A stretch of 64,000 nt of DNA, taken from the NCBI GenBank assembly GCA_903901975.1, contig CAIUTB010000085.1, positions 1 through 64,000 of the forward strand. Reading direction: 5' to 3'. A model generated the notes under the pieces. It made no database searches and was not told the origin of the DNA. It saw only the letters and a list, made by a program, of their open reading frames with translations. Positions 4,326-21,052 of the stretch are shown in pieces (within the stretch, counting starts at the first letter, position 1; each line of letters starts with the position of its first letter). This DNA comes from an uncultured Bacteroidales bacterium (lineage in GTDB: Bacteria; Bacteroidota; Bacteroidia; Bacteroidales; Paludibacteraceae). Made by a program: the position numbers and the translations under genes.

Positions 4326-5879
4326 CAGTTCAGGGATTATCAATCGTTTTATCAATGTTTCCGCCTTATTATATTCTAGCACTGCTTCCACCTGCTTTAA
4401 CTCATAGTCGAGCAATTGCTGGCGAATTCGCAGAATATCGCTTAAGCCGGAAGCTGAGGATGTAAATAATTTAATGGTAATATCCAGCGATTTCTTAGCC
4501 AACTGGCTTTGACTTTCATACAATTTCAAACGTCGCCCGGCATCGTAGTACTGTTGCAATGCCTCATAATACTGTGATTGCAGCATATTAGCCGTTGCCT
4601 GATAGTTTTGCTTCGAAGCCGTTTTCAAAAACTTGGTTTCTGCTTGCATAGCCTTGTATTTCTCACGATAAATGGGTAAGGTCAGCGTGAGCATGGGCAT
4701 AATCATATCCTGACCGTTCATGGCCGAAGTGGACATTTCACTTTTAGAAATAATGGAATAATTTAGTCCCACTCCCACCATGGGTAGTCCCATTTGTTTC
4801 TGCATTTTAGTGCGAGCAGTAAGCGATTGTTGCTCGTACGCCAACATGACCAACATCGGATTCCGTATAAACATAGAATCAGTAACCGACAAATAAGCAA
4901 TTACCAAGGGTTCGACTGGCAAAAACTCAACTCTAGCAACCTGTGTTTTTTGAGGACGGTTCAACAAACTATTAAAGCGCGCCATTGCCACTTGCTCTTC
5001 GTTTCTCAAAGAAGCTATATTATCTTCCAAACTTGCCGCTTCAATTTGAATCTGATATACTTCGGACAAGCCTGAAGTTATTGTTGCAGAACTCATAGTA
5101 GCCGATGAAGTTGCAGGACGGGAAGCCGTTGAAGCTCCTGAACCATCACTCATAGAATTCATACCCAAAGAAACTGAAGTCGTTGATTGAATACCATTGC
5201 CCGACATATTTCTACCTGAAACAGCAGAACTGCCACCCGTAGAACCCGACCGAAACTTTACCAAGGTAAGCCGTTCAATAGTTTTCAAAAGTTCCAGGTT
5301 TTTTTCCGAAATACGAATATTCTGACGAACCTTGTACAAATCGAACCAAACGAGCTGTACATCATAAAACACTTGTAACTTTGCATCTCTGAAAGCTTCG
5401 AACTTCATTTTTGCCATCAGACTCATTTCATCCTTTGCATTTTTAAGTACACCAAACCATGGAAACATTTGCATCAGTTTAATATCCGCCACCTGATAAC
5501 CGGCCATCAACTCCATAGGACTCAGAAAAACGCCCATTTCCAATTGCGGATCCGGCAAACTGCCTACCTGTGGCACTTTTTGCAACGAAGCCTGATATTC
5601 ATTGTATCGTTGCAAAACAGTAGGGTTATTCTTTGTAGCCAGCTCAAGATAATGCATCAGCGAATCATTCTGAGAATATATTGAAATACATGGAAATAGG
5701 AAATAGGAAATAAATAGAAATACTCTAAGACTCTTCGAAATATTTTGAAATACATGGAAATACTCACATACATTTCTATCTATTTCAAGTACATCCATAT
5801 ATTTGAAAGTATTTCTGTATGTTTCTATATCTCCTTCTATTTCTATTTTTCTATTATTATTATTTTTTTTCATTTTCAT
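4299..5879 (-). CDS. TolC-family outer-membrane channel (CusC-like) with repeat-derived N-terminus
   Basis: The protein is the presumed outer-membrane exit duct of the efflux complex. TolC features are seen from about residue 70 (LELATKNNPTVLQRYNEYQASLQKVPQVG, in part; LPDPQLEMGVFLSP) to the long helices near the C-terminus (LFTSSASGLSDILRIRQQLLDYELKQ). The export signal is the hydrophobic stretch LRVFLFISYFLFPCISIYSQ at about residues 50-69, unusually deep in the protein. The preceding 49 residues (for example KIEIEGDIETY) are encoded by the left repeat tract of the adjacent FHB element. A Ser/Gly/Met-rich insert is at about residues 218-275. The last eight residues (PPNPLKGE) come from a REPIN arm. 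ATG 5879 overlaps the FHB gene by 20 bases; ATG 5873 and ATG 5798 are other possible starts. Confidence 0.82.
   Translation of the reverse strand: MKMKKNNNNRKIEIEGDIETYRNTFKYMDVLEIDRNVCEYFHVFQNISKSLRVFLFISYFLFPCISIYSQNDSLMHYLELATKNNPTVLQRYNEYQASLQKVPQVGSLPDPQLEMGVFLSPMELMAGYQVADIKLMQMFPWFGVLKNAKDEMSLMAKMKFEAFRDAKLQVFYDVQLVWFDLYKVRQNIRISEKNLELLKTIERLTLVKFRSGSTGGSSAVSGRNMSGNGIQSTTSVSLGMNSMSDGSGASTASRPATSSATMSSATITSGLSEVYQIQIEAASLEDNIASLRNEEQVAMARFNSLLNRPQKTQVARVEFLPVEPLVIAYLSVTDSMFIRNPMLVMLAYEQQSLTARTKMQKQMGLPMVGVGLNYSIISKSEMSTSAMNGQDMIMPMLTLTLPIYREKYKAMQAETKFLKTASKQNYQATANMLQSQYYEALQQYYDAGRRLKLYESQSQLAKKSLDITIKLFTSSASGLSDILRIRQQLLDYELKQVEAVLEYNKAETLIKRLIIPELPPNPLKGE
5670..5850. repeat. Left arm of FHB element 1 (degenerate word repeats)
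   Basis: The tract is built from variants of GAAATACATGGAAATA and ATTTCTATCTATTTCAAG. The complementary words occur at 6262-6360 on the other side of the FHB gene, so the two form a degenerate inverted pair. This arm is also the coding sequence for the first 50 or so residues of the TolC homologue. Confidence 0.65.
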
Positions 5880-6252
5880 TTTTTGTAAACTTTATAAAGT
5901 TATTCAACTTTATCTGAAGATCTTTTGAAATAGATTTATACTCGTCAAAGACTTGCTGGTTTATTTTATTTCGTTCAAATAATAATTCAAGCCAATGATC
6001 AGTCGATTCAGATTGAGAAGCCCGGGCATTATAATAAAACCTGACTTTATCCAAAAAGTGAAAACGACTATATCCTTCAGCAATGTTAGCTCCAATAGAA
6101 TCCGTAGCTCTAATAAATTGGTCTCCTATAATTTTCTTCTCTTCAAAAGACATTTTAGAATAAATATCCCATGCAATTGTGGAAAGCTTCCGTGACAATT
6201 GATAGACTTGTAAATCCTTAATCGTGATAAAAGTTTTAGTTTCCATTTTCAA
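5860..6252 (-). CDS. Four-helix-bundle protein (23S rRNA intervening-sequence protein family)
   Basis: The 130-residue protein is predicted all-helical and carries the family signature near residues 46-66: DQFIRATDSIGANIAEGYSR. This matches the FHB/S23 family (PF05635, TIGR02436), first known from ORFs inside 23S rRNA intervening sequences; its molecular function is not established. The gene lies between cusA and the TolC gene, where conserved efflux operons have no such gene, and is flanked by inverted word-repeat tracts. It overlaps the TolC reading frame by 20 bases, so translation may be coupled. A second in-frame ATG lies two codons downstream. The C-terminus is a low-complexity KFTKNENEKK tail next to the repeat tract. 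Confidence 0.85.
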   Translation of the reverse strand: MKMETKTFITIKDLQVYQLSRKLSTIAWDIYSKMSFEEKKIIGDQFIRATDSIGANIAEGYSRFHFLDKVRFYYNARASQSESTDHWLELLFERNKINQQVFDEYKSISKDLQIKLNNFIKFTKNENEKK

Positions 6253-6261
6253 AATTATTTA

Positions 6262-6360
6262 ATTTTCAAACAATGTATTTCAATTGTAGAAATAATATCT
6301 TTCAATCATATTTCAATCTATTTCAATTCATTACAACTGTATTTCTATCTTATTTCAATG
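6262..6360. repeat. Right arm of FHB element 1
   Basis: Contains repeated words such as TATTTCAATCTATTTCAATTC and TATTTCTATCTTATTTCAATG-type sequence, complementary to words of the 5670-5850 tract. It runs into the 3' end of cusA, so the last residues (NTLK) and the TAA stop of CusA are made from this tract. Confidence 0.62.
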
Positions 6361-9300
6361 TATTCTCTCTCCACATGGCCTGAAACAGCGGTACCACAAA
6401 AATGGTCATTACCTGAATAATCATTCCTCCAAAAGTTGGAATAGCCATTGGCACCATTATGTCCGCACCCTTTCCGGTGGAAGTAAGTACCGGCAACAGC
6501 GCAATTACCGCCACAGCCGTAGTCATCATAGCCGGACGAACCCGCTTTTTTCCGGCTTCTATCACCGCTTCACGTACTTCATGTACCGTTTTGGGTTTCT
6601 TATCTTCGAACACCTGATGAATATATGTTCCCATAATCACACCGTCGTTGGTGGCAATTCCAAACAGGGCAATAAACCCAACCCAGACCGCCACACTCAA
6701 ATTTATCGGGTGCATTTGGAACAGATCGCGCAGGTTCATTCCGGCAATGGAGAAGTTCAGAAACCAATCCTGTCCGTAGAGCCAAAGCATGATAAATCCA
6801 CCTGCAAATGCTACAAATACCCCAGAGAAATGGATAAAGGAAGCTGTCACCGTTTTAAACTGAAAGTACAGAAGCAATAGAATCAGCAATAAACTAATCG
6901 GAATAACTATCGATAAGCGTTCCGTTGCCCGAATCTCATTTTCGTAGTTTCCGGCAAATTTGTAGGTCACACCGGTAGGCAATTTCAATTCACCCGAATC
7001 CAACTTTTTCTTCAGCATATCAGATGCTTCGTTCACCACATCCACTTCGGCTTTGCTTTCCAGCTTGTCGAAAATGACATAACCCACCAAAAACGTATTT
7101 TCGGTTTTAATCATTTGCGCACCGCGTGTATAATTGATATCGGCAAGTTCGCTCAATGGAATTTGAGTTCCGTTCATTGCGGGAATCAGAATTCGTTTAA
7201 TATCTTCGGGATTGTCGCGCAACTCACGGGCATAGCGCACCCGCATCGGGAAGCGTTCACGTCCTTCCACCGAAGTACTCAAGGCCATACCACCCATAGC
7301 TACCTGCAGGATTTCCTGCACATCACTCACGGTCATTCCGTAACGCGCCATGTTTTCGCGGTTGAGTTTTATTTCCAGGTAAGGCGCACCCACTGCTCGG
7401 TCGTAAAACACCGACGAAGCTTTGACTGACGGAACATGCTTCAAGGCTTTTTCGAACTGCATACCGGCTTTTTCAATCGATTCTAAATCCGGTCCGTAAA
7501 TTTTCAAGCCCATCGGCGCCCGCATTCCGGTAGAAAGCATCACCAAGCGAGTTTCAATCGGCTGGAGTTTGGGAGCAGAAGTCAAGCCGGGAATATCGGT
7601 CACTTTTACGATTTCGTTCCAAATATCGTTCGGTTTTTTAATCTGCGACCGCCACTGGCGGAAATATTCTCCACCTTTATCAATAATCAAATAATCAGGA
7701 ATATTTTTAGATATATCTTGAAATACATTGAAATACATTGAAATATCAGTATAGGTTGTTTTAGAAGTAAATTCTTTATCATTTGCACTAAAATGAAACA
7801 CTTCTTTTTCTTTATCAAAAGTTATTTCCTTTATATTATTTAAATCTATTATATTTCCACCTATTTCTATTTTATTTCCACTTATTTCTATTTTGTTTCC
7901 ACCTGTTTCTATTTTATTTCCACTTATTTCTATTTTATTTCTATCAATTTCCTTTTTTATCTTTTTAGTATTTAAAATATAACTTCCATTTTTATTTGTT
8001 CTAAATCGTTCGCGATGACCTTCGTTGTTCAGAATATATTCGGAACGATAATTAATGGTATTTTCGAACATCTGCACCGGAGCCGGATCGAGCGCAGAAT
8101 TCACGCGTCCCCATTTGCCCACCGCTACTTCCACTTCTGGAATGGAAGCCAACCGTTTATCAAGTGTTTCGATATATTGCAGGTTCTTTTCGATACTAGA
8201 GTGCGGCATGCTGGTTGGCATCAATAGATACGAACCTTCGTTGAGCGACGGCATAAACTCTTTGCCTGTTCCCGGAAATGCTTTAGCAGGTGCATTCCAC
8301 CCTATCTTTTCAAAACCGGTAGCAACCGGTCCGAACAATTTATCGAATCCTTGCCAAACCAGCAATCCGAAGAATAAAGTAAAAGCAGGCAGTATCAGGA
8401 ATTTCCATTTATGAATCAATGCCGAACGCAGAATCGGTTCGTAGAAATGAACCATCGTCATTAATGCACCCAGAATAACCGCAACGATGCCCGTCACGAA
8501 CAGGAAGTTGACGAATAAGCTGTTATGCGCGCCCAATGGTAGCCACTCCATGGACAAATAATACAACGCTACCAAAACGGTTATGCCGATATTGATATAG
8601 TTTGGATATTCTTTTCGCTCTTTAGGCCAACGGTAATCCTGCAGGTTATTGATTCCCAAAGCTACCAACGCCAATGCCGGCCAAACCTGCCAGATAGCGA
8701 CGAACAATAGTCCGGCAATGATTAATCCTGCATTAAAATAGCGGCGAAGCTTCTTCGTATCTATCCGTATATCAAAAATGATATGCACCAGGGTTGGTAA
8801 CACCACGATACCAAGGATAAAAGCCGACAACAGGGCAAACGTTTTGGTAAACGCGAGCGGGTGAAACAGTTTTCCTTCGGCTGCTTCCATGGCAAAAACC
8901 GGCAAGAAGCTGACAATAGTGGTAGCGATGGAAGTCACTACCGCAGCACGCACTTCAGTTGTGGCAAGGTAAATGACATTCATCAATTCTTTACCACGAA
9001 TGCCTTTGTTCTCGGGCATTTCGAGATGCCGCAGGATATTCTCCACATCCACAATCCCAATATCCACCATCACTCCAATGGCAATAGCAATACCGGACAA
9101 GGCAACGATATTGGCATCCACATGGAAAAAATGCATTAGAATAAAAGTCATCAGCACGCCCAGCGGCAACAATCCGGCAACGATGACCGAAGCCCTAAGA
9201 TTGAGCACCAACACAATAATAACAATGATGCTAATCAGAATTTCGTGCGAAAGAGTTGACTCAAGCGTTCCAATGGTTTCTTTTATCAGCCCGGTACGGT

Positions 9301-10354
9301 CGTAAAAAGGCACAACAGTAACTTTGGAAATGCTACCATCTGCCAGTTTTTTCTGTTGTAATCCGGCCTCCATCTCTTTAATTTTGGCTTTTACATTGCC
9401 AATCACTTCCATGGGGTTAGATCCGTAACGGGCTACGACCACCGCTCCCACTGCTTCGCTTCCGGCTTTATCCAGTCCACCACGACGGGTTGCAGGACCA
9501 AAGGAAGTCCGCGCAACATCTTTTATACGCACCGGAATATTATTCCGTACTGAAACAACTGAATTATCCAAATCATCCAGACTCTTCACGTAACCGAGTC
9601 CACGAATAATATATTCCACATTATTCAGTTCTACCGTTTCTGCACCGATGTCCAGGTTACTCTTGCGGACTGCATTCATCACATCCATCACCGAAACACC
9701 AAAAGCTTTCATCGCTTCGGGGTTTACATCCACCTGATATTCTTTAGTAAAACCACCCACCGAAGCTACTTCCGAAACACCTTCGGCAGCCGACAGACTA
9801 TATTTTACGTAGAAATCCTGAATGGTACGCAATTCCTGCGGATTCCAACCACCATTGGGTTTGCCGGTTTTCGGGTCACGCCCTTCGAGCGTGTACCAAA
9901 ATATCTGACCAAGCGCCGTAGCATCCGGACCTAACGATGGTTGAATACCTTGCGGTAACGTACCGGCAGGCAACGAGTTCAATTTTTCCAGAATACGCGA
10001 CCGGCTCCAGTAGAATTCCACATTATCCTTGAAAATAATGTAGATAAACGACATGCCGAACATGGACGTACTCCGAATGGTTTTCACCCCCGGAATGCCC
10101 AGCAAGGCGGAAGTAAGCGGATAACTGATCTGATCCTGAATATCTTTGGGTGAGCGACCCATCCATTCGGTAGAAACGATTTGTTGGTTGTCACCAATAT
10201 CCGGAATCGCATCCACCGGAATCGGATCGCGGGGAATAACTCCCGTTTTCCAATTGAAAGGTGAATACGTAATTCCCATCAGCACGAAGGCAATCAGAAA
10301 AATAAAGGTAATCAGCCTGTGCTCGAGAAAATATTTGACGAGTTTGTTGAACAT
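6350..10354 (-). CDS. cusA: CusA/CzcA-type heavy-metal RND efflux pump
   Basis: This 1334-residue inner-membrane transporter should drive Cu(I)/Ag(I)-type cation export using the proton gradient. It has the N-terminal segment MFNKLVKYFLEHRLITFIFL, the porter-domain start (DAIPDIGDNQQIVSTEWMGRS, in part), TSMFGMSFIYIIF, the HME-type GVMVDIGIVDVENI segment with acidic residues in TM4, and the second membrane half from RLSIVIPISLLLILLLLYFQ. Conservation through DIWNEIVKVTDIPGLTSAP is strong. Residues about 790-893 are unlike the rest of the family: they contain four NKIEI(S/T)GG-type heptads and a segment related to the TolC N-terminal tract. I read this as repeat sequence inserted in frame in a variable periplasmic loop. 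The stop codon lies in the adjacent repeat arm. Cu specificity is inferred from neighbours. Confidence 0.93.
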   Translation of the reverse strand: MFNKLVKYFLEHRLITFIFLIAFVLMGITYSPFNWKTGVIPRDPIPVDAIPDIGDNQQIVSTEWMGRSPKDIQDQISYPLTSALLGIPGVKTIRSTSMFGMSFIYIIFKDNVEFYWSRSRILEKLNSLPAGTLPQGIQPSLGPDATALGQIFWYTLEGRDPKTGKPNGGWNPQELRTIQDFYVKYSLSAAEGVSEVASVGGFTKEYQVDVNPEAMKAFGVSVMDVMNAVRKSNLDIGAETVELNNVEYIIRGLGYVKSLDDLDNSVVSVRNNIPVRIKDVARTSFGPATRRGGLDKAGSEAVGAVVVARYGSNPMEVIGNVKAKIKEMEAGLQQKKLADGSISKVTVVPFYDRTGLIKETIGTLESTLSHEILISIIVIIVLVLNLRASVIVAGLLPLGVLMTFILMHFFHVDANIVALSGIAIAIGVMVDIGIVDVENILRHLEMPENKGIRGKELMNVIYLATTEVRAAVVTSIATTIVSFLPVFAMEAAEGKLFHPLAFTKTFALLSAFILGIVVLPTLVHIIFDIRIDTKKLRRYFNAGLIIAGLLFVAIWQVWPALALVALGINNLQDYRWPKERKEYPNYINIGITVLVALYYLSMEWLPLGAHNSLFVNFLFVTGIVAVILGALMTMVHFYEPILRSALIHKWKFLILPAFTLFFGLLVWQGFDKLFGPVATGFEKIGWNAPAKAFPGTGKEFMPSLNEGSYLLMPTSMPHSSIEKNLQYIETLDKRLASIPEVEVAVGKWGRVNSALDPAPVQMFENTINYRSEYILNNEGHRERFRTNKNGSYILNTKKIKKEIDRNKIEISGNKIETGGNKIEISGNKIEIGGNIIDLNNIKEITFDKEKEVFHFSANDKEFTSKTTYTDISMYFNVFQDISKNIPDYLIIDKGGEYFRQWRSQIKKPNDIWNEIVKVTDIPGLTSAPKLQPIETRLVMLSTGMRAPMGLKIYGPDLESIEKAGMQFEKALKHVPSVKASSVFYDRAVGAPYLEIKLNRENMARYGMTVSDVQEILQVAMGGMALSTSVEGRERFPMRVRYARELRDNPEDIKRILIPAMNGTQIPLSELADINYTRGAQMIKTENTFLVGYVIFDKLESKAEVDVVNEASDMLKKKLDSGELKLPTGVTYKFAGNYENEIRATERLSIVIPISLLLILLLLYFQFKTVTASFIHFSGVFVAFAGGFIMLWLYGQDWFLNFSIAGMNLRDLFQMHPINLSVAVWVGFIALFGIATNDGVIMGTYIHQVFEDKKPKTVHEVREAVIEAGKKRVRPAMMTTAVAVIALLPVLTSTGKGADIMVPMAIPTFGGMIIQVMTIFVVPLFQAMWRENTLK
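7690..7960. repeat. In-frame repeat insertion inside cusA, with four 21-bp tandem units
   Basis: Units of 21 bp (ATTTCCACCTATTTCTATTTT and close variants, here over 20 only as one unit shortened to ATTTCCACCTATTTCTATTT) run from 7852 to 7935. A second part near 7708-7740 has GAAATACATT three times. Both words also occur in the arms of FHB element 1. All are multiples of three and keep the cusA frame open. Confidence 0.7.
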
Positions 10355-10369
10355 AAAATCAATGTTTTA

Positions 10370-10455
10370 ATATACCAATGTGCTAATATGCCAATTAAGA
10401 AGGGCATACCAAATCATTGGCACATTGGCATATTTTTTTATTGGCACATTGAATT
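10370..10455. repeat. Gene-less inverted word-repeat tract between the CxxC gene and cusA
   Basis: Left part has CCAATGTGCTAATATGCCAA (10376-10394 region); right part has TTGGCACATTGGCATATTTT and again TTGGCACATTGAAT. The words CCAATGTGC and CCAATATGC face each other in inverted orientation, as in the FHB elements, but there is no FHB gene between them. It may be a solo or ancestral form of the same element. Confidence 0.6.
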
Positions 10456-10777
10456 ATCGGTATTTACAACAGCCGGGCAATGCATTGTAAACTGCAGTAG
10501 TTGCTTTGTACTTTGGAGTGTCATGACCTACAGCAGCCAGTTTCTTCTCAATGTCATCGCTTTTTACTTTTGCAGGATCATAAACCAGTGTAAGCATCTT
10601 GGTTTTTTCATTCCATTCTGCTTTGGTTACGCCGTCCACTTTGGCAGTTTTTTCAATGCGGGCTTTACACGATTCGCATTTGCCCGATATTTTGATTGTT
10701 TCTGTTTTAGTAGCTGCAAATGCTACTGAAGTGACTGTAAGAGCCATAATGGCTACGAATAACTTTAACGTTTTCAT
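10454..10777 (-). CDS. Secreted HMA-domain metal-binding protein (MerP-like)
   Basis: The 107-residue protein has a signal peptide (about residues 1-21, MKTLKLFVAIMALTVTSVAF) and one heavy-metal-associated domain with the metal motif GKCESC (Cys34 and Cys37), followed by the beta-alpha-beta-beta-alpha-beta pattern (VDGVTKAEWNEKTKMLTLVY, AAVGHDTPKYK). A C-terminal LPGCCKYR adds a further Cys pair. It probably binds Cu(I) in the periplasm and hands it to the efflux complex. It lies upstream of cusA in the same transcription unit, separated by an inverted word-repeat tract. Confidence 0.9.
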   Translation of the reverse strand: MKTLKLFVAIMALTVTSVAFAATKTETIKISGKCESCKARIEKTAKVDGVTKAEWNEKTKMLTLVYDPAKVKSDDIEKKLAAVGHDTPKYKATTAVYNALPGCCKYR

Positions 10778-10840
10778 TTTGATTGAATTTTATGACCCCT
10801 GCCCCAAATGGGTGTTCAAAGGTCTTGTTATTTAATTTGT

Positions 10841-11254
10841 TTATTTTAATTTGTAATGCATAATCATTTTGTCGGTTCCGTCCATGTGCCAAAACCAAAG
10901 GTCTGTAGCAGTCAGTTTATTGATAGTGTTTACATCCGACTTGCCGGCTTCGATGCCTGAAACCACAAATTGTGTTTTATTTTGCTGGAACTGCCATGCA
11001 CCGGTCATTGGATTCATGCCCATATTATCAGCATATATTACCGTTCCATCAGCTTTCAGCCTCATTTGGTATTCAGCACCTTCACTTGCCAGAATTTCGG
11101 CAGGGGTCATATCCATTCCGGCCATATTTACCGATTCAATCACCCATGTTTTATCTGTAATCAGGGTAACCGGGTCTTCACTGCATGCTGCCAGAGTGAA
11201 TCCAACCGATACCAATGCTATTGCAATAATTAATTTTGATTTTAAAGTTTTCAT
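10841..11254 (-). CDS. Small lipoprotein, possibly lipocalin-like, in the metal operon
   Basis: The 137-residue protein begins MKTLKSKLIIAIALVSVGFT and has a lipobox LAAC, so it should be lipid-anchored. I use ATG 11254 because residues before it would not form part of a signal peptide. The mature part has the pattern of short lipocalin-like proteins of Bacteroidota (TDKTWVIESVNMAGMDMTP, GTVIYADNMGMNPMTGAWQF). The Met clusters (MAGMDM, NMGMNPM, WHMDGTDKMIMHY) could bind Cu(I); this is inference from position in a copper-type operon. It is 63 bases upstream of the CxxC gene. Confidence 0.7.
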   Translation of the reverse strand: MKTLKSKLIIAIALVSVGFTLAACSEDPVTLITDKTWVIESVNMAGMDMTPAEILASEGAEYQMRLKADGTVIYADNMGMNPMTGAWQFQQNKTQFVVSGIEAGKSDVNTINKLTATDLWFWHMDGTDKMIMHYKLK

Positions 11255-11277
11255 CTTGATGTAATTTATGATGAACG

Positions 11278-11416
11278 ACCCCAAACCCCTAAAGGGGCTT
11301 AAGACCTTAATTATGAAATTTCTTTGGGGGGGTTATACGGAACTTAAAGCATTTCTACCTTAGAAACGCTTTACTAACGCACTCTTAAATCCCCCTTTAG
11401 GGGGTTTGGGGGTCTT
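11278..11416. repeat. Second REPIN-like inverted doublet
   Basis: CCCCAAACCCCTAAAGGGG (from 11279) and, inverted, CCCCCTTTAGGGGGTTTGGG (from 11391) with matching outer flanks CTTAAGACC / TCTTAAAT. Total length is about 139 bp, nearly equal to the doublet at 4186-4325, though the inner sequence differs. The right arm supplies the stop codon of the HYC_CC_PP gene. Confidence 0.7.
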
Positions 11417-11834
11417 AAATGCGAAATACACAAATGTCAGAGAGGCTGACAGCACTGGCAATATAGTTACCCGGTGGCTGGACATTGGTGTAGGTAGCAG
11501 AATTCGTATGTAGAAATTGAATTCCAATCGTTTTGGGAATATCAAACACCTGCAACAATTGGTTGGCAGAATGGTTGATTTGTAAGGTTGACGGACTGTA
11601 ATTGTTGTCCACCGCATAAAAAGACATTTCGTCCTTGCAGCAACCTTCATTGCTAACCGTCTTATCGGCAGTGCTTGATTGTTCATCCGCACACATACCA
11701 CAGCTGGCTTTCTGGTGTGTAAATGAAAGCTTAACCTGCGAAACTTCTCCTCCACAATAATGTGTAGCCAAGCTAAGATGCATCCCCGAAAGGAGTATCA
11801 ATGCAGCAAACAGGATGGAGATTAGTTTTTTCAT
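11415..11834 (-). CDS. HYC_CC_PP family secreted protein
   Basis: The 139-residue protein has a signal peptide (MKKLISILFAALILLSGMHL) and the three signature motifs of the family: HYC in THYCGGEV (about residue 25), CC in NEGCCKDEM (about residue 64) and PP in NVQPPGNY (about residue 119), plus CGMC. Members are short Cys-containing proteins of Bacteroidota commonly found with heavy-metal efflux genes; a metal-sensing or binding role is plausible but unproven to my knowledge. It is the first gene of the operon and lies directly behind a good promoter. Confidence 0.82.
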   Translation of the reverse strand: MKKLISILFAALILLSGMHLSLATHYCGGEVSQVKLSFTHQKASCGMCADEQSSTADKTVSNEGCCKDEMSFYAVDNNYSPSTLQINHSANQLLQVFDIPKTIGIQFLHTNSATYTNVQPPGNYIASAVSLSDICVFRI

Positions 11835-11901: not shown

Positions 11902-11912
11902 CTTTATTTCGA

Positions 11913-13706: not shown

Positions 13707-13737
13707 CAAAGATAGATGTTTTTGAAATATAAACAAA
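13707..13737 (-). promoter_or_regulatory. Promoter of the DUF4160-DUF2442 pair
   Basis: TTTG (13737-13734), 19-bp spacer, TATCTTTG (13714-13707) on the minus strand: a full match to the Bacteroidota consensus. It places the transcript start near 13700, which excludes the far upstream ATG at 13822. Confidence 0.78.
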
Positions 13738-13765
13738 AATCACGTGGAAACTCTTTTGAAAAAGA

Positions 13766-13862
13766 AATCGGCTGAAATCCTTCGTAGAATTTCAGCCGAT
13801 TGAGTGTCCTGTGTTGGCACACATTGCAAATGTGCGCCAGCGAGCGAGCGCAAACGTGTTAA
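13766..13862. repeat. Hairpin repeat B copy 3 plus repeat C copy 2
   Basis: Repeat B at 13766-13801 has arms AATCGGCTGAAAT / ATTTCAGCCGATT. Repeat C (TGTGTTGGCACACATTGC) follows, and here continues as a near palindrome GGCACACATTGCAAATGTGC and then CAGCGAGCGAGCGC. It separates the DUF4160 pair from the T9SS gene. Confidence 0.78.
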
Positions 13863-13872
13863 TAGAATGTTA

Positions 13873-14775
13873 TTAAAGTTTTACAAACTTTTTTAGGCAA
13901 ACATTATCTTTGCCTGAGAATTTTATGAAATAGATTCCTTTTTCTAAGTTTCCAAGATTCAATTCAATATTTTCTCTAAAATTAATCTTTGTATTTTCTA
14001 TGAGTTTAGAGTTGCAGGTGTAGATTTCAAAAAAATCATAACTTGAATTTCCTATGTTTATATTTAATTTGTCTTTTGTTGGAATTGGGTATAATTTGAT
14101 TTCCTCCAGTTTGCTCTTAACTTCCGGAACATTTACTAACCATCTGGAACATGGACAGTCTTCAGAATTTGTTGCCTCCCTATTAAAATATAGAATATGC
14201 TCATCCCTAAAACAACCAAAATAAGTTGATGAAGCATCTGTTGGAATGTCTGGTTTAAGTGGATTTAACAAGCCAAATCTAACTACACTGCCAATTCCTT
14301 CTATCCAAATATCATTCATATAATACATAGAAGTTGTCAGATTCCATATTTTTCTTTGTTCTCCATTTAACTCAATAGTTCCTATACTATTCACAACTTT
14401 ATAATATACAGTTTGAGGATTTCCAGACTCTTTACCATAAAAGATTGTGTCGCCTACATTCAATGAAAAATCATACAAGACAACTTCCTTATAATAATTT
14501 CTATAATATATTCTTTTTGTCAATGTGTCTTCCCGAATATAGCCAGTAATAGGTTTGTATCCATTTTGCTCGACATAAACTTCGATATATTTTTTATTAT
14601 CAAAAGTTGTAGTATCTCCCAATGAATAAATTGATTGAAATTCATATGGGTATCCCATTCGCCCTGTGGTTAAAGAATTCCAAAAGGCATTTGATTTAGG
14701 GAACTTCGCATAACCATTAGAGTAAATAGAAACAACACACAGCATTACCAAAAACAGAGTCAAAGTTTTTTTCAT
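13873..14775 (-). CDS. Secreted protein with T9SS C-terminal sorting domain
   Basis: The 300-residue protein has a signal peptide (MKKTLTLFLVMLCVVSIYSN) and ends with a type A sorting domain of about 75 residues (IKLYPIPTKDKLNINIGN, then LEKGIYFIKFSGKD and KKFVKL). The middle has no fold I recognise; it contains a single CPC motif (EDCPCSRW). A TAAATTTG -7-like box is at 14831-14824. It probably ends at the cell surface. Function unknown. Confidence 0.8.
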   Translation of the reverse strand: MKKTLTLFLVMLCVVSIYSNGYAKFPKSNAFWNSLTTGRMGYPYEFQSIYSLGDTTTFDNKKYIEVYVEQNGYKPITGYIREDTLTKRIYYRNYYKEVVLYDFSLNVGDTIFYGKESGNPQTVYYKVVNSIGTIELNGEQRKIWNLTTSMYYMNDIWIEGIGSVVRFGLLNPLKPDIPTDASSTYFGCFRDEHILYFNREATNSEDCPCSRWLVNVPEVKSKLEEIKLYPIPTKDKLNINIGNSSYDFFEIYTCNSKLIENTKINFRENIELNLGNLEKGIYFIKFSGKDNVCLKKFVKL

Positions 14776-14929
14776 AATATTGTTCTTTTAAGTTTGTATA
14801 TGAGTAAATATGTTTTTTTGCTCCAAATTTAATAATTGTTTTTTAATTTAAACTGATTTATGTAAAAAAAATTCTTATTGGAGTAAAAAGAAGCGCGAAC
14901 TCTCGTCCGCGCTCTCACTAATTTTACTC

Positions 14930-15130
14930 TTAATTTGTTGCAGCAGGAGCATCGCCACCTTTCTTTCCCTTTGCCCGGCGGATTGAAACGGTATTGTCGT
15001 AGCCTTCGATACGTTTGTTCAGTTCGGTCACAAAACCGGCATAAGCAGCTTCGCCTTCCACCACGATAAGTGCGTTGAGGCGTTCCACCAACTGACGATA
15101 GATTAAACATAATTCATCCCGAACAAATCT
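14930..15130 (-). pseudogene. C-terminal remnant of a DUF6261 family gene
   Basis: In the minus frame ending with TAA at 14930-14932 about 65 codons encode YRQLVERLNALIVVEGEAA, then AYAGFVTELNKRIEGYDNTV and a basic tail. This resembles the C-terminus of DUF6261 proteins (recognised from memory). There is no start codon: a stop at 15131-15133 closes the frame upstream and the first 150 or more residues are missing. The codon use is richer in GC than the AT-rich neighbours. Confidence 0.6.
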
Positions 15131-15165
15131 TTAATTTAGTTGTTTAGGAAGTAAAACTTATTCAA

Positions 15166-16044
15166 ATGTCGAAAATTCGCAGTATAGAACGTATTCTACC
15201 TCCGCCTCCGGCTCACATGGTAGGCGATGGTTTCAGGGTACATAATTTTTTTCCGGGAAATGGTCAACTGGGTTTACAGCGGATGAGTCCTTTTTTTTTG
15301 ATGGATTACGGTGCAAAAGTTGATTTTCCACCCACCGATACGCCACGAGGTGTAGGTGTTCATCCGCATCGTGGTTTCGAAACCGTGACTATTTCTTATC
15401 ATGGTAAAGTGGCTCATCACGATAGTGCCGGAAACTCCGGAGTAATTGGCGAAGGCGATGTGCAGTGGATGACAGCGGCTTCGGGTGTTTTGCACAAGGA
15501 ATATCACGACCGGGAATGGAGCAAAAAAGGCGGCATGCTGCAAATGGTTCAACTTTGGGTAAACCTGCCTGCCAAACACAAAATGGATTCACCAAAGTAT
15601 CAGCCGATTAAACGGGAAGAATTCGGAAAATTTATACTGCCCGATAATGGAGGAACTATTGAAGTAATTGCCGGAAATTACAAAGGAACAACAGGTCCTG
15701 CATCCAGTTTCACTCCCATCGAAATGTATAATGTGCGTTTACAGCCAAACAGCGCTGTAAGCCTTTCTCTACCTGAAAATTACAATACAGGATTTCTGGT
15801 TATTGAGGGTGAAATTACCATCAGTAACAAAACCATTAAATCCGACCATTTTGTGCTGTTTGCAAACGATGGTACTGATATTGAAGTTAAAGCTGAAAAT
15901 GAGGCAATTGTGTTGATTTTGAGCGGTGAGCCGATTAACGAAGCGATTTTTCCTTATGGTCCGTTCGTAATGAATAGCAAAGAAGAAATCATTCAGGCAT
16001 ATACTGATTTTGATAATGGCTTGTTTGGTTATCTTGAAGATTAG
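15166..16044 (+). CDS. Pirin family bicupin protein
   Basis: The 292-residue protein shows the N-terminal pirin cupin with metal ligands in VGVHPHRGFETVTI, HHDSAGNSG and GVLHKEYHD, and LQLWVNLP-type sequence (MVQLWVNLPAKHKM). The C-terminal cupin runs from about residue 165. Pirins are iron-binding nuclear or bacterial proteins, some with quercetinase activity; the natural substrate here is unknown. Full length for the family. It is followed by the aconitase gene after 130 bases, with a separate -7 box, so it is probably a separate unit. Confidence 0.92.
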   Translation: MSKIRSIERILPPPPAHMVGDGFRVHNFFPGNGQLGLQRMSPFFLMDYGAKVDFPPTDTPRGVGVHPHRGFETVTISYHGKVAHHDSAGNSGVIGEGDVQWMTAASGVLHKEYHDREWSKKGGMLQMVQLWVNLPAKHKMDSPKYQPIKREEFGKFILPDNGGTIEVIAGNYKGTTGPASSFTPIEMYNVRLQPNSAVSLSLPENYNTGFLVIEGEITISNKTIKSDHFVLFANDGTDIEVKAENEAIVLILSGEPINEAIFPYGPFVMNSKEEIIQAYTDFDNGLFGYLED

Positions 16045-16126
16045 AGAATTTAACTAATTAACTGTCTATTATTTTAAAAAAAATACTAAAAAAATTTCAT
16101 AACTGCACAGAATAGCAAATTTTGTG

Positions 16127-16134
16127 TATATTTG
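16127..16134 (+). promoter_or_regulatory. -7 box of the aconitase promoter
   Basis: TATATTTG, 39 bases before the aconitase ATG. The -33 region is poor, with CTG 21 bp upstream. Confidence 0.55.
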
Positions 16135-16173
16135 TCCTTGAAACAATTTCAAATTGATTAAAAATACAAAAAT

Positions 16174-18426
16174 ATGGTATTTGATGAAGAGATGATTCAC
16201 AGCATATATGCTGGAATCCCTGAAAAGATTAAACAAATTAAGAAAAAACTTCAACGTCCGCTTACTCTCACCGAAAAAATTCTATATACACACCTTGCAA
16301 AGGACGAACCCATAGAAGATTATACTAGAGCTGTTGATTACGTAAATTTTTCACCCGACCGGGTAGCGATGCAGGACGCAACGGCTCAAATGGCCTTGCT
16401 ACAATTAATGAATTCCGGTCGCAAAACCGTTGCCGTACCTTCCACCGTTCATTGCGACCACCTGATTCAGGCTTATGCCGGTGCAACTACCGACCTTCAA
16501 ACTGCCAACGATACCAACCGCGAAGTATATGATTTCCTGAGTGCGGTTTCCAATAAATTTGGAATTGGATTTTGGAAACCCGGAGCAGGAATTATTCATC
16601 AGGTGGTGCTTGAAAACTATGCATTCCCCGGTGGAATGATGGTAGGAACAGATTCACACACCGTAAATGCCGGTGGACTTGGTATGATTGCGATTGGCGT
16701 AGGTGGTGCAGATGCTGTTGACGTAATGGCCGGAATGCCCTGGGAACTGAAAATGCCCAAAATAATTGGAGTAAAACTGACCGGAAAACTTTCGGGCTGG
16801 ACTTCAGCAAAAGATGTTATTTTGAAATTAGCCGGAATTCTGACTGTAAAAGGTGGAACGAATGCTATCGTTGAATATTTTGGAGAAGGAGCTGCTTCAC
16901 TATCAGCAACCGGAAAAGGTACTATTTGTAATATGGGTGCTGAAGTCGGTGCCACTACTTCTGTTTTTCCATTCGACGAAAAATCGGCTGCTTACCTCGA
17001 AGCTACCGGACGTGCATCGATAGCTAAACTGGCACTTCAAAACATCGAACACTTACAGGCCGATGCAGAAGTACTCGCAAATCCTGAAAAATACTACGAC
17101 CGCATAATCGAAATTGATTTAAGCACGCTCGAACCTTACGTGAACGGTCCGTTTACGCCTGATTTGGCTTATCCTATTTCGGAATTTGCTCAAATCGTAA
17201 AAGAAAAAGGCTATCCACAAAAAATGGAAGCCGGATTGATTGGTTCGTGTACCAACTCGTCGTACGAAGACCTTACCCGTGCAGCTTCCATTGTAAAAAA
17301 AGCCAAAAAAGACGGCCTCCAGGTGCAGGCTCAATTTATCATCAACCCGGGTTCTGAACAAGTTCGTTATACCGCCGAACGCGATGGTGTGATTGCCGAA
17401 TTTGAATCGGTTGGTGCTGTGGTTATGGCGAATGCCTGCGGACCTTGTATCGGTCAATGGAAACGAGAAATTGACATTCCTGACCGTTCAAACTCCATTA
17501 TAACTTCATTCAATCGCAACTTTGCCAAACGTGCCGACGGTAATCCAAACACACATATTTTTATCGGGTCGCCCGAAATTGTATCCGCACTTACTATCGC
17601 AGGAGACCTTTGTTTCAATCCGTTGACAGATACCTTGCTAAATGATAAAGGAGAAAAAGTAAAATTACAAGAACCAATCGGATTTGAACTGCCACCAAAA
17701 GGCTATGCTGTGGAAGATGCCGGTTATATTGCTCCACCGGCTGATGGAAGTAAAATTGTGGTAAATATCAATCCCACTTCAAAGCGTCTGCAAATACTGG
17801 AAGCGTTCAAAGCATGGGACGGCAAAGATTACCTGGATCAACCACTTTTAATTAAGGTAAAAGGAAAATGTACAACCGACCATATTTCCATGGCAGGTCC
17901 CTGGCTCAAATTCCGTGGACATTTGGACAATATTTCGGATAATATGCTGATTGGTGCCGTAAATACATTCAATGATAAAACGAATGCCGTGCTTGATACT
18001 GAAAGTGGAGAATACATGGCTGTTCCGGCTTTGGCACGTAAATTCAAGACACTTGGGATCGGTTCTGTTGTTGTAGCAGAAGAAAACTATGGTGAAGGTT
18101 CAAGTCGTGAACACGCAGCCATGGAACCACGCTTTTTGAATGTGAAAGCCATTTTGGTGAAATCATTTGCACGAATTCACGAAACAAATCTCAAAAAACA
18201 AGGCATGTTAGCTTTGACTTTTGTCGACAAAAACGATTATGACAAAGTGCGAGAAGACGATAAAATATGCATCCTTGGCCTGACAAGTTTCGCTCCCGGA
18301 AAAAACCTGACTATTGAGTTAAAACATTCTGATGGCACGAATGAACAATTTGAGGTTGTTCACACTTATAATAATGCACAGGTTGAATGGTTTAAAGCCG
18401 GAAGTGCATTGAATGGATTAGTATAG
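16174..18426 (+). CDS. Aconitate hydratase
   Basis: The 750-residue enzyme converts citrate to isocitrate in the cytoplasm. The three [4Fe-4S] cysteines are visible: Cys359 in GSCTNSS, Cys422 and Cys425 in NACGPCIG. Other conserved parts are [28 protein letters not shown] and the swivel-domain motif [16 protein letters not shown] near residues 634-649. The size and the [17 protein letters not shown] pattern fit the mitochondrial-like aconitases of Bacteroidota. It is the first gene of the acn-gltA-icd group that provides 2-oxoglutarate. Confidence 0.96.
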
Positions 18427-18430
18427 TAAG

Positions 18431-18690
18431 TTCAGGTTGAGTAGGAAATTAGGTTGATTTGAATTGGTTGAATTGGTTGAATAGGTTGAATAAGTTGATT
18501 GGGAAATTAGGTTGATTAGGAAATTAGCTTGGATTAGTTGAGTAAGAAATTAAGTTGAATTAGTTGTAACTAAATCAACTTAATCAACAAATAACTTAAT
18601 CTAACTTAATCTAACTCAATCAACAAATAACTTAATCTAACTCAATCAACAAATAACTTAATCAACTTAATCTAACAAACTAATAAAAAT
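18431..18690. repeat. Left tract of FHB element 2
   Basis: The tract consists of GGTTGAATTGGTTGAATAGG-type words up to about 18570, then switches to the opposite orientation (AATCAACTTAATCAAC, ATAACTTAATCTAAC). The words match the right tract (19140-19190) in inverted orientation. The two halves can also pair with each other around 18570. It fills the 273 bases between acn and the FHB gene; no other feature is seen. Confidence 0.75.
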
Positions 18691-18699
18691 ACAGGATCA

Positions 18700-19137
18700 A
18701 TGAGTAATTTTTACGAGTTGGAGGTTTGGAAACAATGTCGGGTATTTAGGAATGATATTTCAACTGTTTCAAAGACTTTTCCGATTGAAGAAAAATATAA
18801 GTTGGTAGATCAAATAAAACGTTCGAGCCGTTCAACAACAGCCAACATTGCCGAAGGTCATGGACGTTATCATTTTCAGGAAAATATTCAATTCTGCCGA
18901 CAAGCAAGAGGTTCATTGTCAGAGACACTCGATCACTTGATTTGCGCATTAGATGAAGAATATATTTCAAAAGAAGAATATCTGAATTTTCAAAAGCAAT
19001 ATGATTATTGTTTAAAACTTATAAATGGATATATACACTTTCTTCAAAATCAAAAAGATACGGATGTAAATAATAAAATAAACGAGAAAGATAAAAAACG
19101 AAAAAAGGATTCAGATGGTTTAACCCATCCAACTTAA
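18700..19137 (+). CDS. Four-helix-bundle protein, element 2
   Basis: The 145-residue protein has the FHB/S23 signature: FYELEVWKQCRVFRNDI at the start, KYKLVDQIKRSSRSTTANIA (residues about 31-50) and EGHGRYHFQENIQFCRQARG. It is related to, but clearly different from, the copies in elements 1 and 3. Residues after about 120 are a lysine- and asparagine-rich tail, and the last codons (HPT) enter the right repeat tract. It sits between acn and gltA. The 13-mer AATACAGGATCAA directly precedes and overlaps the ATG and recurs at the right end of element 3. Confidence 0.85.
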   Translation: MSNFYELEVWKQCRVFRNDISTVSKTFPIEEKYKLVDQIKRSSRSTTANIAEGHGRYHFQENIQFCRQARGSLSETLDHLICALDEEYISKEEYLNFQKQYDYCLKLINGYIHFLQNQKDTDVNNKINEKDKKRKKDSDGLTHPT

Positions 19138-19139
19138 TA

Positions 19140-19190
19140 AACCAAATCAACCTATTCAACTAAATCAACTTATTCAACTTATTCAAAATA
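19140..19190. repeat. Right tract of FHB element 2
   Basis: ACCAAATCAACCTATTCAAC followed by TAAATCAACTTATTCAACTT: the reverse complement of words in the left tract (for example GGTTGAATAGGTTGAATAAG). Confidence 0.72.
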
Positions 19191-19217
19191 ATTAACAACA
19201 TAATATAATCGAAGTTC

Positions 19218-20573
19218 ATGGAAAAAGATTTTTTAATTTACAAATTGTCTGAAACGATTAAAACCACAAGTCGTATTGACAAAGAATTATTTACACAGTT
19301 TAATGTTAAGCGCGGATTACGTAATGAGGATCACTCAGGAGTTCTGGTAGGTTTAACAAAAGTTGGTGACGTAGTTGGATACGAAAAGCTACCCGAAGGT
19401 GGATTAAAAGCTGTTCCGGGAAAACTATTCTACCGCGGAATTGACGTTGAAGATCTTGTACACGGTCTGCAAAAAGAAAACAGACTCGGTTTTGAAGAAA
19501 CAGCCTTTTTGCTTCTTTCAGGTTATCAACCAGATGCTGAAGAATTAAAAATGTTCTCAACAATTTTGAACGACGGTATGGCTTTAGACAAGAAAGCTAC
19601 CATGAACATTATTGATTTAGAAGGTGTTGATATTATGAATATTCTAGCTCGTAGTGTGCTGGAGATGTACACCTTTGACAACAAAGCAGATGATATTACC
19701 CGTGATAATTTGATTAGACAATCTATTGACCTTATTGCAAAATTCCCTACAATTGTTGCTTATGCTTATAATATTCTTCGTCATAGCCAACAAGGTCGTG
19801 TTTTACATATTCGTCATCCAAAGGAAAATGTTTCGATTGCAGAAAACTTCCTTTACATGATGAAGGGTTCTGACTGTTATACCGATTTGGATGTAAAAAT
19901 TCTTGATTTATTGCTTATTCTTCATGCCGATCACGGTGGTGGTAACAACTCTACTTTCGCTGTTCGGGTTGTAAGTTCAACTTTGACTGATACTTATTCA
20001 GCTATTGCCACAGGAATTGGATCATTAAAAGGACCGCTTCATGGTGGTGCCAACATTAAAGTAAACGAAATGTTCGATCACTTAAAAACGGCTATAAAAG
20101 ACTGGACAAACATTAAAGAAATTGACGCCTATCTGAAGAAAATGCTTAATAAAGAGGCATATAATAAAACAGGTTTAATTTATGGTATTGGTCATGCTGT
20201 ATATACCATTTCCGATCCACGGTCCTTATTGCTGAAAGAAATGGCTCGTGCTTTGGCGTTGGAAAAAGGGTTGGAAAAAGAATTTGCCTTCCTCGAGTTG
20301 CTTGACGAACGTTCGGTAAATGCTTTTATGACTTTCAAAGGCGATGATATTAACAAACAGGTTTGTACCAATGTCGATTTCTATTCAGGATTTGTGTATG
20401 AAGCAATCGGTCTTCCAACCGAAGTATTCACTCCTCTTTTTGCTATGGCTCGTATCACCGGTTGGACTGCACATCGTATTGAAGAATTGAACTTTGCCAG
20501 TAAACGTATTATTCGTCCGGCTTATAAAAATGTTGGTGAGCGCAAGGAGTTTGTACCATTAAACAAAAGATAA
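19218..20573 (+). CDS. gltA: Citrate synthase
   Basis: The 451-residue enzyme condenses acetyl-CoA and oxaloacetate. Conserved parts are PGKLFYRGIDVEDLVHGL, the active-site stretch LILHADHGGGNNSTFAVR (His236/His239), GPLHGGANIKVNEM (His275) and GIGHAVYTISDPRS. The variant is the Bacteroidota type, about 20 residues longer than the E. coli enzyme. It lies between aconitase and isocitrate dehydrogenase, with FHB elements in both gaps. Confidence 0.95.
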   Translation: MEKDFLIYKLSETIKTTSRIDKELFTQFNVKRGLRNEDHSGVLVGLTKVGDVVGYEKLPEGGLKAVPGKLFYRGIDVEDLVHGLQKENRLGFEETAFLLLSGYQPDAEELKMFSTILNDGMALDKKATMNIIDLEGVDIMNILARSVLEMYTFDNKADDITRDNLIRQSIDLIAKFPTIVAYAYNILRHSQQGRVLHIRHPKENVSIAENFLYMMKGSDCYTDLDVKILDLLLILHADHGGGNNSTFAVRVVSSTLTDTYSAIATGIGSLKGPLHGGANIKVNEMFDHLKTAIKDWTNIKEIDAYLKKMLNKEAYNKTGLIYGIGHAVYTISDPRSLLLKEMARALALEKGLEKEFAFLELLDERSVNAFMTFKGDDINKQVCTNVDFYSGFVYEAIGLPTEVFTPLFAMARITGWTAHRIEELNFASKRIIRPAYKNVGERKEFVPLNKR

Positions 20574-20576
20574 AAA

Positions 20577-20640
20577 TTAGTCTAAAGTCAAAGGACAAAA
20601 GTCAAAAGTTTTGATTTTTGTCCTTTATATTTTGGACTTA
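20577..20640. repeat. Left arm of FHB element 3
   Basis: TTAGTCTAAAGTCAAAGGAC and AAAAGTCAAAAGTTTTGA words, inverted relative to 21011-21052. An internal hairpin (AAAGGACAAAA ... TTTTGTCCTTT) directly after the gltA stop could act as a terminator. Confidence 0.75.
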
Positions 20641-20652
20641 AATAAGTTTAAA

Positions 20653-21021
20653 ATGAGAAACTTTGAAGAATTAAGGGTGTGGCAAGATGCTCGTTTATTA
20701 GTGAATGACATTTATAAAATGACTGAAGCTTGTAAAGATTATGGATTCAAAGATCAAATACAAAGAGCTGCTGTTTCGATTATGAATAATATAGCTGAAG
20801 GTTCTGAATCAGGATCGGATCCATTATTTATTCGTTAGTTGAAGATAGCAAAAGCGAGTTGTGGTGAAGTAAGAAGCATGTTATTTCTTTGTGAAGATTT
20901 ACAATAATGTTCGGTTGATACTGCCATAATTCTTAGAAACAAAACAATAATAATTTCATCATCTATTCAAAAATTAATCGAATATTTAAACAAATCTAAT
21001 AATACAGGATCAAAGTCTTAG
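20653..21021 (+). pseudogene. Four-helix-bundle gene, element 3, broken by two in-frame stops
   Basis: From ATG 20653 the frame encodes MRNFEELRVWQDARLLVNDI and then IQRAAVSIMNNIAEGSESGS, a clear FHB start, but stops at TAG 20836-20838. The same frame continues with LKIAKASCGEVRSMLFLCED, which is the expected family sequence, meets TAA at 20905-20907, and runs on to TAG at 21019. So no frameshift is needed: the gene is a full-length copy (about 122 codons) with two nonsense changes, both where a Tyr codon would be expected (FIR-Y-L and LQ-Y-C). The first 61 residues could still be made. Confidence 0.85.
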
Positions 21022-21052
21022 ACTTTTGACCTTTGACTTTAGACCTAAGACA
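21011..21052. repeat. Right arm of FHB element 3
   Basis: GACTTTTGACCTTTGACTTT then AGACCTAAGAC. The reverse complement (TTAGGTCTAAAGTCAAAGGT) matches the left arm almost base for base. It reaches to within 8 bases of the icd start codon. Confidence 0.75.

Follow-up and report, generated by a model that had tools for sequence, protein, structure and literature searches.

Among the closest described relatives of the elements reported here are the intervening sequences (IVSs) of 23S rRNA, in which an open reading frame (ORF) for a PF05635 (S23p) protein lies between inverted arms, in sense within a transcribed unit, and of which short ORF-less forms exist. In Coxiella, tandem GACAGAT heptamers that vary in number by strain precede the S23 ORF, and the IVS is excised by RNase III (PMC4990558). 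In bacteria of the candidate phyla radiation, 23S_rRNA_IVP ORFs are found in rRNA inserts, with ORF-less inserts at common sites (PMC11270868). Elements with the same plan were identified in an uncultured Bacteroidales bacterium (Paludibacteraceae; GenBank assembly GCA_903901975.1), in a stretch of 64,000 nucleotides of contig CAIUTB010000085.1 (positions 1 to 64,000; here termed the window), where each of three genes for four-helix-bundle (FHB) proteins of family PF05635 is enclosed by inverted tracts of short words, the word differing among the three. Whereas the IVS lies in rRNA, the window elements lie between protein genes of operons, and the elements examined here also differ from it in having locus-specific, protein-linked words and dispersed miniature forms.

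Repetitive extragenic palindromic (REP) sequences and their doublets (REPINs), with the associated RAYT genes, resemble these elements in that a gene is flanked by its own inverted repeat class. In REPINs, class and protein are paired and the repeats are dispersed as inverted doublets and singlets (PMC3116915); here such a pairing held for three of four words tested, one of them with exceptions, and failed for one. However, the gene here belongs to PF05635 and does not encode a tyrosine (Y1) transposase, and the repeat is a tandem heptad array rather than a palindrome. As regards insertion sequences and miniature inverted-repeat transposable elements, no transposase was found between the arms. 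The tandem 7-nt units of the FHB arms are like the heptanucleotides of the short tandemly repeated repetitive (STRR) sequences of cyanobacteria, whose hairpins of 7-bp repeats have been described with their function called unknown (PMC2670836). For Xanthomonas campestris, 186 GGGAATC tracts have been reported, most commonly of four units and including 70 cases of two convergent tracts; sense tracts follow stop codons closely, and antisense tracts precede ORFs (PMC4692102). The same source describes GGGGA(T/C)T repeats in Nostoc, with few inverted pairs in Nostoc PCC 7120, and states that detailed literature on heptameric repeats is unavailable. Geobacter metallireducens carries 49 heptamer elements plus paired classes (PMC2700814). 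As in the FHB elements, these published repeats (STRR, Xanthomonas, Geobacter) lie mostly between co-oriented genes, those of Xanthomonas and Geobacter form inverted pairs, and their origin is unexplained in the available portions of the sources.

FHB genes are not mentioned in the available portions of the STRR, Xanthomonas, Nostoc and Geobacter accounts, and no account linking FHB genes to heptamer arms was found in the literature, which was covered in part. An initial annotation of the window had claimed that no element of this kind was described; heptamer repeats of this grammar have in fact been published, and it is to their link with FHB genes that the negative search result above applies. 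The link was examined here in cyanobacterial plasmid FHB loci and in one other Geobacter rather than in the published strains. A related four-helix bundle is bAvd (PF22296), an accessory protein of diversity-generating retroelements (DGRs). The proteins of L001, L004 and L009 (loci and genomes are numbered with the prefixes L and G) pass the threshold for PF05635 but fall short of the one for bAvd, L001 matching PF22296 at 2.8e-5, below the cut-off; of four proteins tested, only L013 passes as bAvd. Unlike the FHB elements, L013 and six DGR-like copies in G372, assigned to the family by likeness, are without heptad arms.

Inverted heptad arms around FHB genes

The host genome, assembled as 170 contigs totaling 3.97 Mb, gave thirteen profile matches, 11 of them above the PF05635 cut-off; two of the 13 are parts of a single gene, giving 12 genes. 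Three of the 11 genes above the cut-off contain in-frame stops, and further FHB genes with such stops were found. Arms were scored by local alignment of the 350 nt upstream of a gene against the reverse complement of the 350 nt downstream. All 11 genes have inverted, locus-specific arms, with scores of 31 to 74, compared with a median of 20 and 95th and 99th percentiles of 28 and 43 for mismatched pairs from the host genome and its relatives; all 11 exceed the 95th percentile and six the 99th. The twelfth gene, L013, has no matching arms (score 18). Across the host genome and relatives the median score was 39.5 (100 loci, after seven with flanks below 200 nt were left out) versus 20 for mismatched pairs. 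Of 99 FHB loci, 76 scored at least 30, as did 13 of 3,460 overlapping background windows in a 400-kb sample of G016, a complete genome from the genus of the host. The six high-scoring background places read are not tandem-word tracts, and a free-spacing rescan of the same 400 kb recovered other inverted repeats, including L113, whose word resembles an FHB arm in G011. In the latter genome, L440 and L442 have FHB arms of GGGCTTCGCCG and GATATTTGCCTTCGGCG words, and the arm pair at L113:10573-10812 in G016 is of the GATATTTGCCTTCGGCG type without an FHB gene. When arms were compared between loci, 36 of 100 diagonal scores exceeded all off-diagonal scores in their row and 38 of 100 diagonal pairs lay above the off-diagonal 99th percentile, the matrix being muddied because loci have word classes in common.

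The initial annotation had proposed that FHB genes be listed and their flanks searched for inverted words. This bore out the pattern well beyond the window: matching inverted arms were found in 180 of 236 FHB loci from four groups, namely the window's order, including a further 20 loci of the genus (95/120), other phyla (55/76), Gammaproteobacteria (22/29) and cyanobacterial plasmids (8/11). L013 is excluded from these counts, as are three duplicates (L012, L153 and L496) and any locus with less than 150 nt of flank. The sample from other phyla comprises the best 80 of 576 loci found via one conserved motif and includes, under the names as deposited, Bacteroidota, Proteobacteria, Planctomycetes, Gastranaerophilales, Clostridia, Omnitrophota, Cloacimonadota, Acidobacteria, Uhrbacteria and one archaeal metagenome-assembled genome; 56 of the 77 with usable flanks scored at least 30, versus 1.9% of mismatched pairs. 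Among Gammaproteobacteria, 77 of 369 genomes gave an FHB match, and 23 of the 30 loci obtained scored at least 30, versus 3.0% of mismatched pairs. Twenty-five records of cyanobacterial plasmids yielded 11 loci with scores of 29 to 63; seven lie above the mismatched-pair 95th percentile, which is high (37) because words are alike there, and four are weaker. Three of the cyanobacterial plasmid FHB genes (L460, L461 and L465) are situated within CRISPR gene sets, twice in cas6-cas4 and once in cas10-cmr3. Identical FHB genes on two Calothrix plasmids were rejected as evidence, as both lie in a common segment of about 3.6 kb.

One query gave no tblastn match for FHB in 50,697 phage records at 1e-5. 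None of seven conserved rRNA oligonucleotides (up to four substitutions) was found in the FHB loci scanned, nor any Rfam match in the window or at three FHB loci; the neighbors of the FHB loci read here are protein genes. The 1.5-Mb genome G372, from the class of G042, gave 11 FHB matches; on the assumption of a circular contig, ten similar FHB-fold genes (L526 to L535) fall in a span of about 215 kb. Of these, the six that were read lack arms, are bAvd-like and lie in near-identical DGR-like cassettes, with variable-region-like DNA before and a reverse transcriptase-like ORF after the gene (by eye); G372 was accordingly rejected as a case of recent transposition.

The arms follow a heptad grammar. 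The best arm self-match had a period of 7 or 14 in 129 of 180 loci (22/22 in Gammaproteobacteria; 51/78 and 41/56 in two earlier sets of arms), compared with 8 in 26 and 9 in 12; the mean self-match at shift 7 was 0.61, 0.61 and 0.79, and that at other shifts except 14 was 0.24 to 0.37. The upstream arm is C-poor (8%, 9% and 12% C). The heptad tract measures 28 to 42 nt, or four to six units, in 48 of the 91 left arms and in 54 of the 92 right arms (medians of 31 and 34.5 nt, respectively). With distances taken to the nearest same-strand ORF of 60 codons, the start of the 5' arm and the end of the upstream stop codon are a median of 0.5 nt apart (-20 to 50 nt in 153 of 176 cases), and a median of 12 nt separates the end of the 3' arm from the next ATG (-20 to 50 nt in 126 of 173 cases). 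Both neighbors are codirectional at 153 of 165 FHB loci (20 further loci being incomplete), versus 182 of 285 gene triples in G016, and the FHB gene reads in sense within these gaps.

Arm words, FHB proteins and dispersal

Arm wording was found to track the FHB protein. Among loci without common neighbors, word similarity correlated negatively with FHB distance (Spearman -0.144, 4,447 pairs), and none of 2,000 permutations was as low. Words were common to all five pairs with at least 80% FHB identity, to 65% of 34 pairs at 70 to 80%, to 22% of 253 at 60 to 70% and to 2% of 2,126 at 50 to 60% (duplicate L153 included). As word sharing falls with FHB identity, the arms travel with the gene while their wording drifts fast, and the unit character proposed in the initial annotation was thereby upheld. 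At fixed sites, an arm was nearer to its own partner than to the partner arm of the ortholog in 79 ordered pairs, further in 24 and equal in 11; the ratio of nearer to further was 22:11 above an FHB identity of 0.8, 39:12 at 0.65 to 0.8 and 18:1 below. The two arms of one element thus change together and stay matched, an exception being L057, whose arms carry different words. The suggestion that arms are remade or diverge by word was half right: words do differ between FHB clades, with both arms changing together. FHB genes are under purifying selection: across 32 pairs of intact genes, dN/dS ranged from 0.03 to 0.31, with a median of 0.11. Covariation of FHB residues with the word gave a weak lead, without a permutation test, to the stretch after NIAEG (L001 residues 52 to 62).

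To what extent words are dispersed with their cognate FHB gene was determined for four words by genome-wide counts, using triple-unit (x3) patterns for the Bacteroidales words; three words agree, one of them with exceptions, and one fails. GTTACRAG x3, allowing up to two mismatches in 23 genomes, gave 81, 44, 24 and 15 matches in G018, G016, G000 (the host genome) and G022, which are the four with a known FHB gene of the GTTACRAG clade, and 0 to 10 in the other 19. The element itself supplies four matches each in G016, G018 and G022, so that the net count of G022 (11) is about that of G006 and G011 (10 each; FHB loci there partly read). The backward pattern, used as a control, matched in two genomes, G005 (54) and G007 (8), and nowhere in the remaining 21. 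The G016 matches fall in 18 places; five were judged by eye to be mini-hairpins or doublets, the other 13 being solo or composite. GACRACRG x3 was most frequent in G011 (114) and G004 (76), both of which have the cognate FHB (L036, L434); apart from four genomes considered below, counts were 0 to 8, and the backward pattern is no control here because the word reads nearly alike backwards. The word of Geobacter AOG1 (L177) occurs at 11 places outside its element; of seven other genomes, six lack it and one has it at a single place. Some of the eight places read resemble degenerate hairpins. For CAAGARYC x3, the genomes predicted to be richest, G001, G009, G014, G018 and G020, had 8, 14, 32, 6 and 60 matches, whereas G005 had 280, and G002, G007, G012 and G017 had 38, 37, 23 and 21.

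The view that tracts are absent away from FHB genes was overturned by these genome-wide word counts. Equal tracts being as common away from FHB genes had been named in the initial annotation as grounds for abandoning its proposal, as had FHB genes at fixed syntenic places without tracts. Both were seen in part: tracts do occur away from FHB genes, at 18 places for one word in G016, none of which falls in the 400-kb sample, and some FHB genes are at fixed places, but with arms.

Window elements and operon gaps

The PF05635 (23S_rRNA_IVP) profile gave three matches in the window (contig C85), at 5902-6219 on the minus strand and at 18715-19029 and 20665-20967 on the plus strand. The three FHB genes lie within inverted word tracts where the initial annotation had placed them (Table 1), the third with two in-frame stops that had gone unnoticed. 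Gene names (cusA, tolC, acn, gltA, icd, sdhA, sdhB, mutA and mutB) were assigned by likeness. The upstream tracts of elements 2 and 3 are already small hairpins of arm and inverted arm. The 3' tract of element 1 extends into the 5' end of the tolC-family ORF, which starts inside the tract (region 5672-5879); judged by eye, the signal-peptide-like N-terminus is apparently tract encoded. The ORF-less hairpin in cusA has the element 1 word, GAAATA. A relative is present in G007; relative to G016, this in-frame insert lengthens cusA by about 75 residues in the host species and about 90 in G007. A short hinge takes its place in 14 other cusA-like genes read in 13 relatives, as well as in one carried by a Parabacteroides plasmid.

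Table 1. Coordinates of the FHB elements and the cusA hairpin in the window
Feature	Position	Strand	Remarks
FHB gene 1 (PF05635)	5860..6252	-	between cusA and tolC-family gene
Element 1, 5' arm	6265..6367	-	coding sense GAGAATACATTGAAATAAGATAGAAATA...
Element 1, 3' tract	5672..5858	-	TATTTC words on coding strand; itself partly inverted
ORF-less word hairpin within cusA, in frame	7700..7975	-	tracts 7718-7745 and 7845-7960
FHB gene 2 (PF05635)	18700..19137	+	between acn and gltA
Element 2, 5' tract	18436..18691	+	GGTTGAATAGGTTGA arm, then own inverted copy
Element 2, 3' arm	19122..19198	+	AACTTATTCAACTTATTCAA; overlaps FHB ORF end
FHB gene 3, broken	20653..20967	+	between gltA and icd; in-frame TAG and TAA
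Element 3, 5' arm	20577..20627	+	TCTAAAGTCAAAGGACAAAAGTC plus inverted part
Element 3, 3' arm	21009..21051	+	GACTTTTGACCTTTGACTTTAGAC; ends 8 nt before next start codon

Comparison of operon gaps between species identified filled, miniature and empty forms, in agreement with the turnover at sites that had been proposed. The gltA-icd gap holds a full element in six species (the host species, L127, L130, L135, L136 and L141), ORF-less hairpins of similar word in L124, L138 and L144, and ORF-less hairpins of other words in L126, L128, L134, L133 and L129 (where the contig ends before icd); L125, L131 and L132 have CCCC-type inserts. Between acn and gltA, full elements are present in the host species and L133 and arms without an ORF in L136, the gap being 26 to 182 nt in the remaining 18 readable loci. 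Of 20 readable sdhA-sdhB gaps, four contain an FHB gene, eleven are of 1 to 26 nt and five have CCCC-type inserts; a lone TTGTAAC unit, like the word of the filled sites, occurs in three of the eleven short gaps (L235, L241 and L250) and may be a footprint or a seed. The mutA-mutB gap is of 2 nt in L264 and L267. FHB elements occupy it in five species, and four species, among them that of the host with two loci, have GxxExxY genes (PF13366) there; an ORF6N-type gene is present in two species and a solo arm in G016. Pfam was run on one protein each of the GxxExxY and ORF6N types. In some gaps the FHB clade varies from one species to another (L059 and L100; L042 and L073). The proposed comparison with operons lacking the insert thus found empty gaps, but exact junctions and target duplications are not definable, as relatives are too diverged.

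GxxExxY genes (PD-(D/E)XK-like) between inverted word arms were observed at L261 and L274 (G000:C114 and C104, mutA-mutB) and at L285 to L314. Scores of at least 30 were found for 16 of the 26 such loci with usable flanks, versus 5% of mismatched pairs, and the period is 9 nt, not 7; these genes constitute a second family of the same plan. The ORF6N-type genes at L262 and L266 in mutA-mutB adjoin a 3' arm like the CAAGARYC word; one of the two comes from G005, the genome in which that word has 280 matches. CCCC-type inverted elements (CCCCCTAACCCCCTGAAGGGGG and similar) are present in the window at 4184-4327 and 11279-11411, and other species have them between gltA and icd and between sdhA and sdhB. 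An array of about four to six copies of a 23-bp repeat, GACGATCGCATACGAGGCTAATT, lies at 37501-37635, 3' of an ORF ending at 37450.

Nature of the elements

The anatomy, heptad grammar, sense orientation, unit behavior, joint change of the arms and purifying selection are established, as are the empty, mini and solo forms and the dispersal of three words with their cognate gene. The likeness to the 23S rRNA IVS drawn in the initial annotation is sound, in view of the common Pfam family, the inverted arms, the sense orientation, the ORF-less forms and the Coxiella heptamers. From sequence comparison, we favor as the probable explanation an intervening-sequence-like, probably mobile element whose FHB ring recognizes its own heptads. 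Each locus would be one element, a PF05635 gene between two tandem-heptad arms, the left C-poor on the sense strand and the right its inverted counterpart; spanning from a stop codon to just before the next start, in sense and within a codirectional pair, it would be read from the host operon. The FHB ring would most likely be the specificity factor for its own heptad word, at about five 7-nt units per arm. The element and its ORF-less versions (arm-loop-arm and solo arms), with the same word, would have spread to other gaps of the genome, probably via host enzymes, as FHB is not a known nuclease. The 23S rRNA IVS would then be a member of the class that landed in rRNA. PF05635 relatives in the PDB (2rld and 2gsc, the latter being XCC0516 of Xanthomonas campestris) have five chains per entry, and a Xanthomonas protein is a homopentamer of four-helix bundles forming a toroid (PMC4990558). 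With five subunits in the ring and about five heptads in an arm, each subunit may take one heptad. TRAP is a precedent for this manner of one repeat per subunit.

Several observations weigh against this reading. A clear arm pair is missing in 56 of 236 FHB loci. No non-syntenic FHB pair exceeded 86.5% identity among the loci compared, and recent movement is therefore unsupported; the lack of a definable target duplication counts on the same side, and some elements are old and syntenic, which is also compatible with a host function. Dispersal is uneven as well: G021 has 30 GACRACRG matches although no cognate is present in the four of its five FHB loci that were read, and G001, G018 and G022 have only 6, 7 and 1 despite FHB loci of that word (intact, fragmentary and broken, respectively). 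CAAGARYC peaks in G005, where the three FHB loci read, of four, include no cognate.

The initial annotation had expected the arms to fold in the mRNA. On that basis, the arms could be kept as a stem in the operon mRNA that is cut by RNase III, rendering the insert harmless, with the FHB protein a passenger or an RNA-binding helper. The family and plan are those of the rRNA IVS, for which RNase III excision and tandem heptamers are reported in Coxiella (PMC4990558), the sense orientation is almost strict, and about 80% of aligned arm columns are complementary (5,374/6,686). However, G-U compatible mismatches are not in excess (287 wobble-compatible versus 303 incompatible transitions in 141 elements), and word order is often interchangeable, being kept in part (32% of 68 elements at p<0.05) by a test that leans toward order, as the compared segments were picked by alignment. 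A stem would also need neither a heptad rule nor protein-linked words. Selection of the arms for folding in mRNA was thus not borne out, and we regard this explanation as unlikely; a role of the arms in DNA, as inverted recognition sites, fits the lack of G-U bias better, and a role in RNA is possible given the sense orientation. Somewhat less likely still is a host regulator, in which an operon-embedded FHB protein would bind RNA or DNA, the heptads being operators and the dispersed tracts a regulon rather than mobile copies. The low dN/dS, syntenic persistence in several species and closeness of heptads to stop and start codons fit such a regulator, and similar heptamer families in Geobacter are annotated as putative global regulator sites (PMC2700814), but different FHB clades occupy one gap in different species, empty sites are common, in-frame stops are not rare (3/11 in the host genome), and GxxExxY and ORF6N genes take the same gap. 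A passive origin, in which the tracts arise by ordinary slippage in operon gaps and small genes with no relation to them land there by chance, is very improbable. The CCCC-type inverted elements and the GxxExxY and ORF6N genes of the same gaps are in line with it, whereas the word is linked to the FHB clade across nonsyntenic sites, FHB arms follow the heptad rule across phyla, GxxExxY arms prefer a 9-nt period, and empty gaps of a few nucleotides lack any tract.

Returning to the mobile-element explanation, a bolder form of it is put forward tentatively, with a little less than even confidence. The elements would constitute a transposase-less mobile class extending across phyla, in which a noncatalytic ring reads about one heptad per subunit and five per arm and, along with ORF-less derivatives, colonizes stop/start junctions of operons via host machinery, with words changing along with the protein; rRNA IVSs, STRRs, Xanthomonas GGGAATC tracts and Geobacter heptamers would be its members or debris.

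The finding is real and far wider than the window, and it follows a sharper rule, that of heptads, than was first seen: these are elements of the IVS kind in operon gaps, with REPIN-like dispersal for some words that fails for one. Proteins of PF05635 are named for 23S rRNA intervening sequences and, to our knowledge, have no known role. Tandem heptamers, for their part, are described in separate accounts of cyanobacteria, Xanthomonas and Geobacter, and there is no consensus on their origin. The protein-linked heptad grammar connects PF05635 genes with these orphan heptamers, and FHB elements may be the source of the published repeats. It makes a compact protein-word pairing available for study and reveals a class of small inserts tolerated by operons exactly at stop/start junctions, in what looks like a widespread, unrecognized kind of selfish element.

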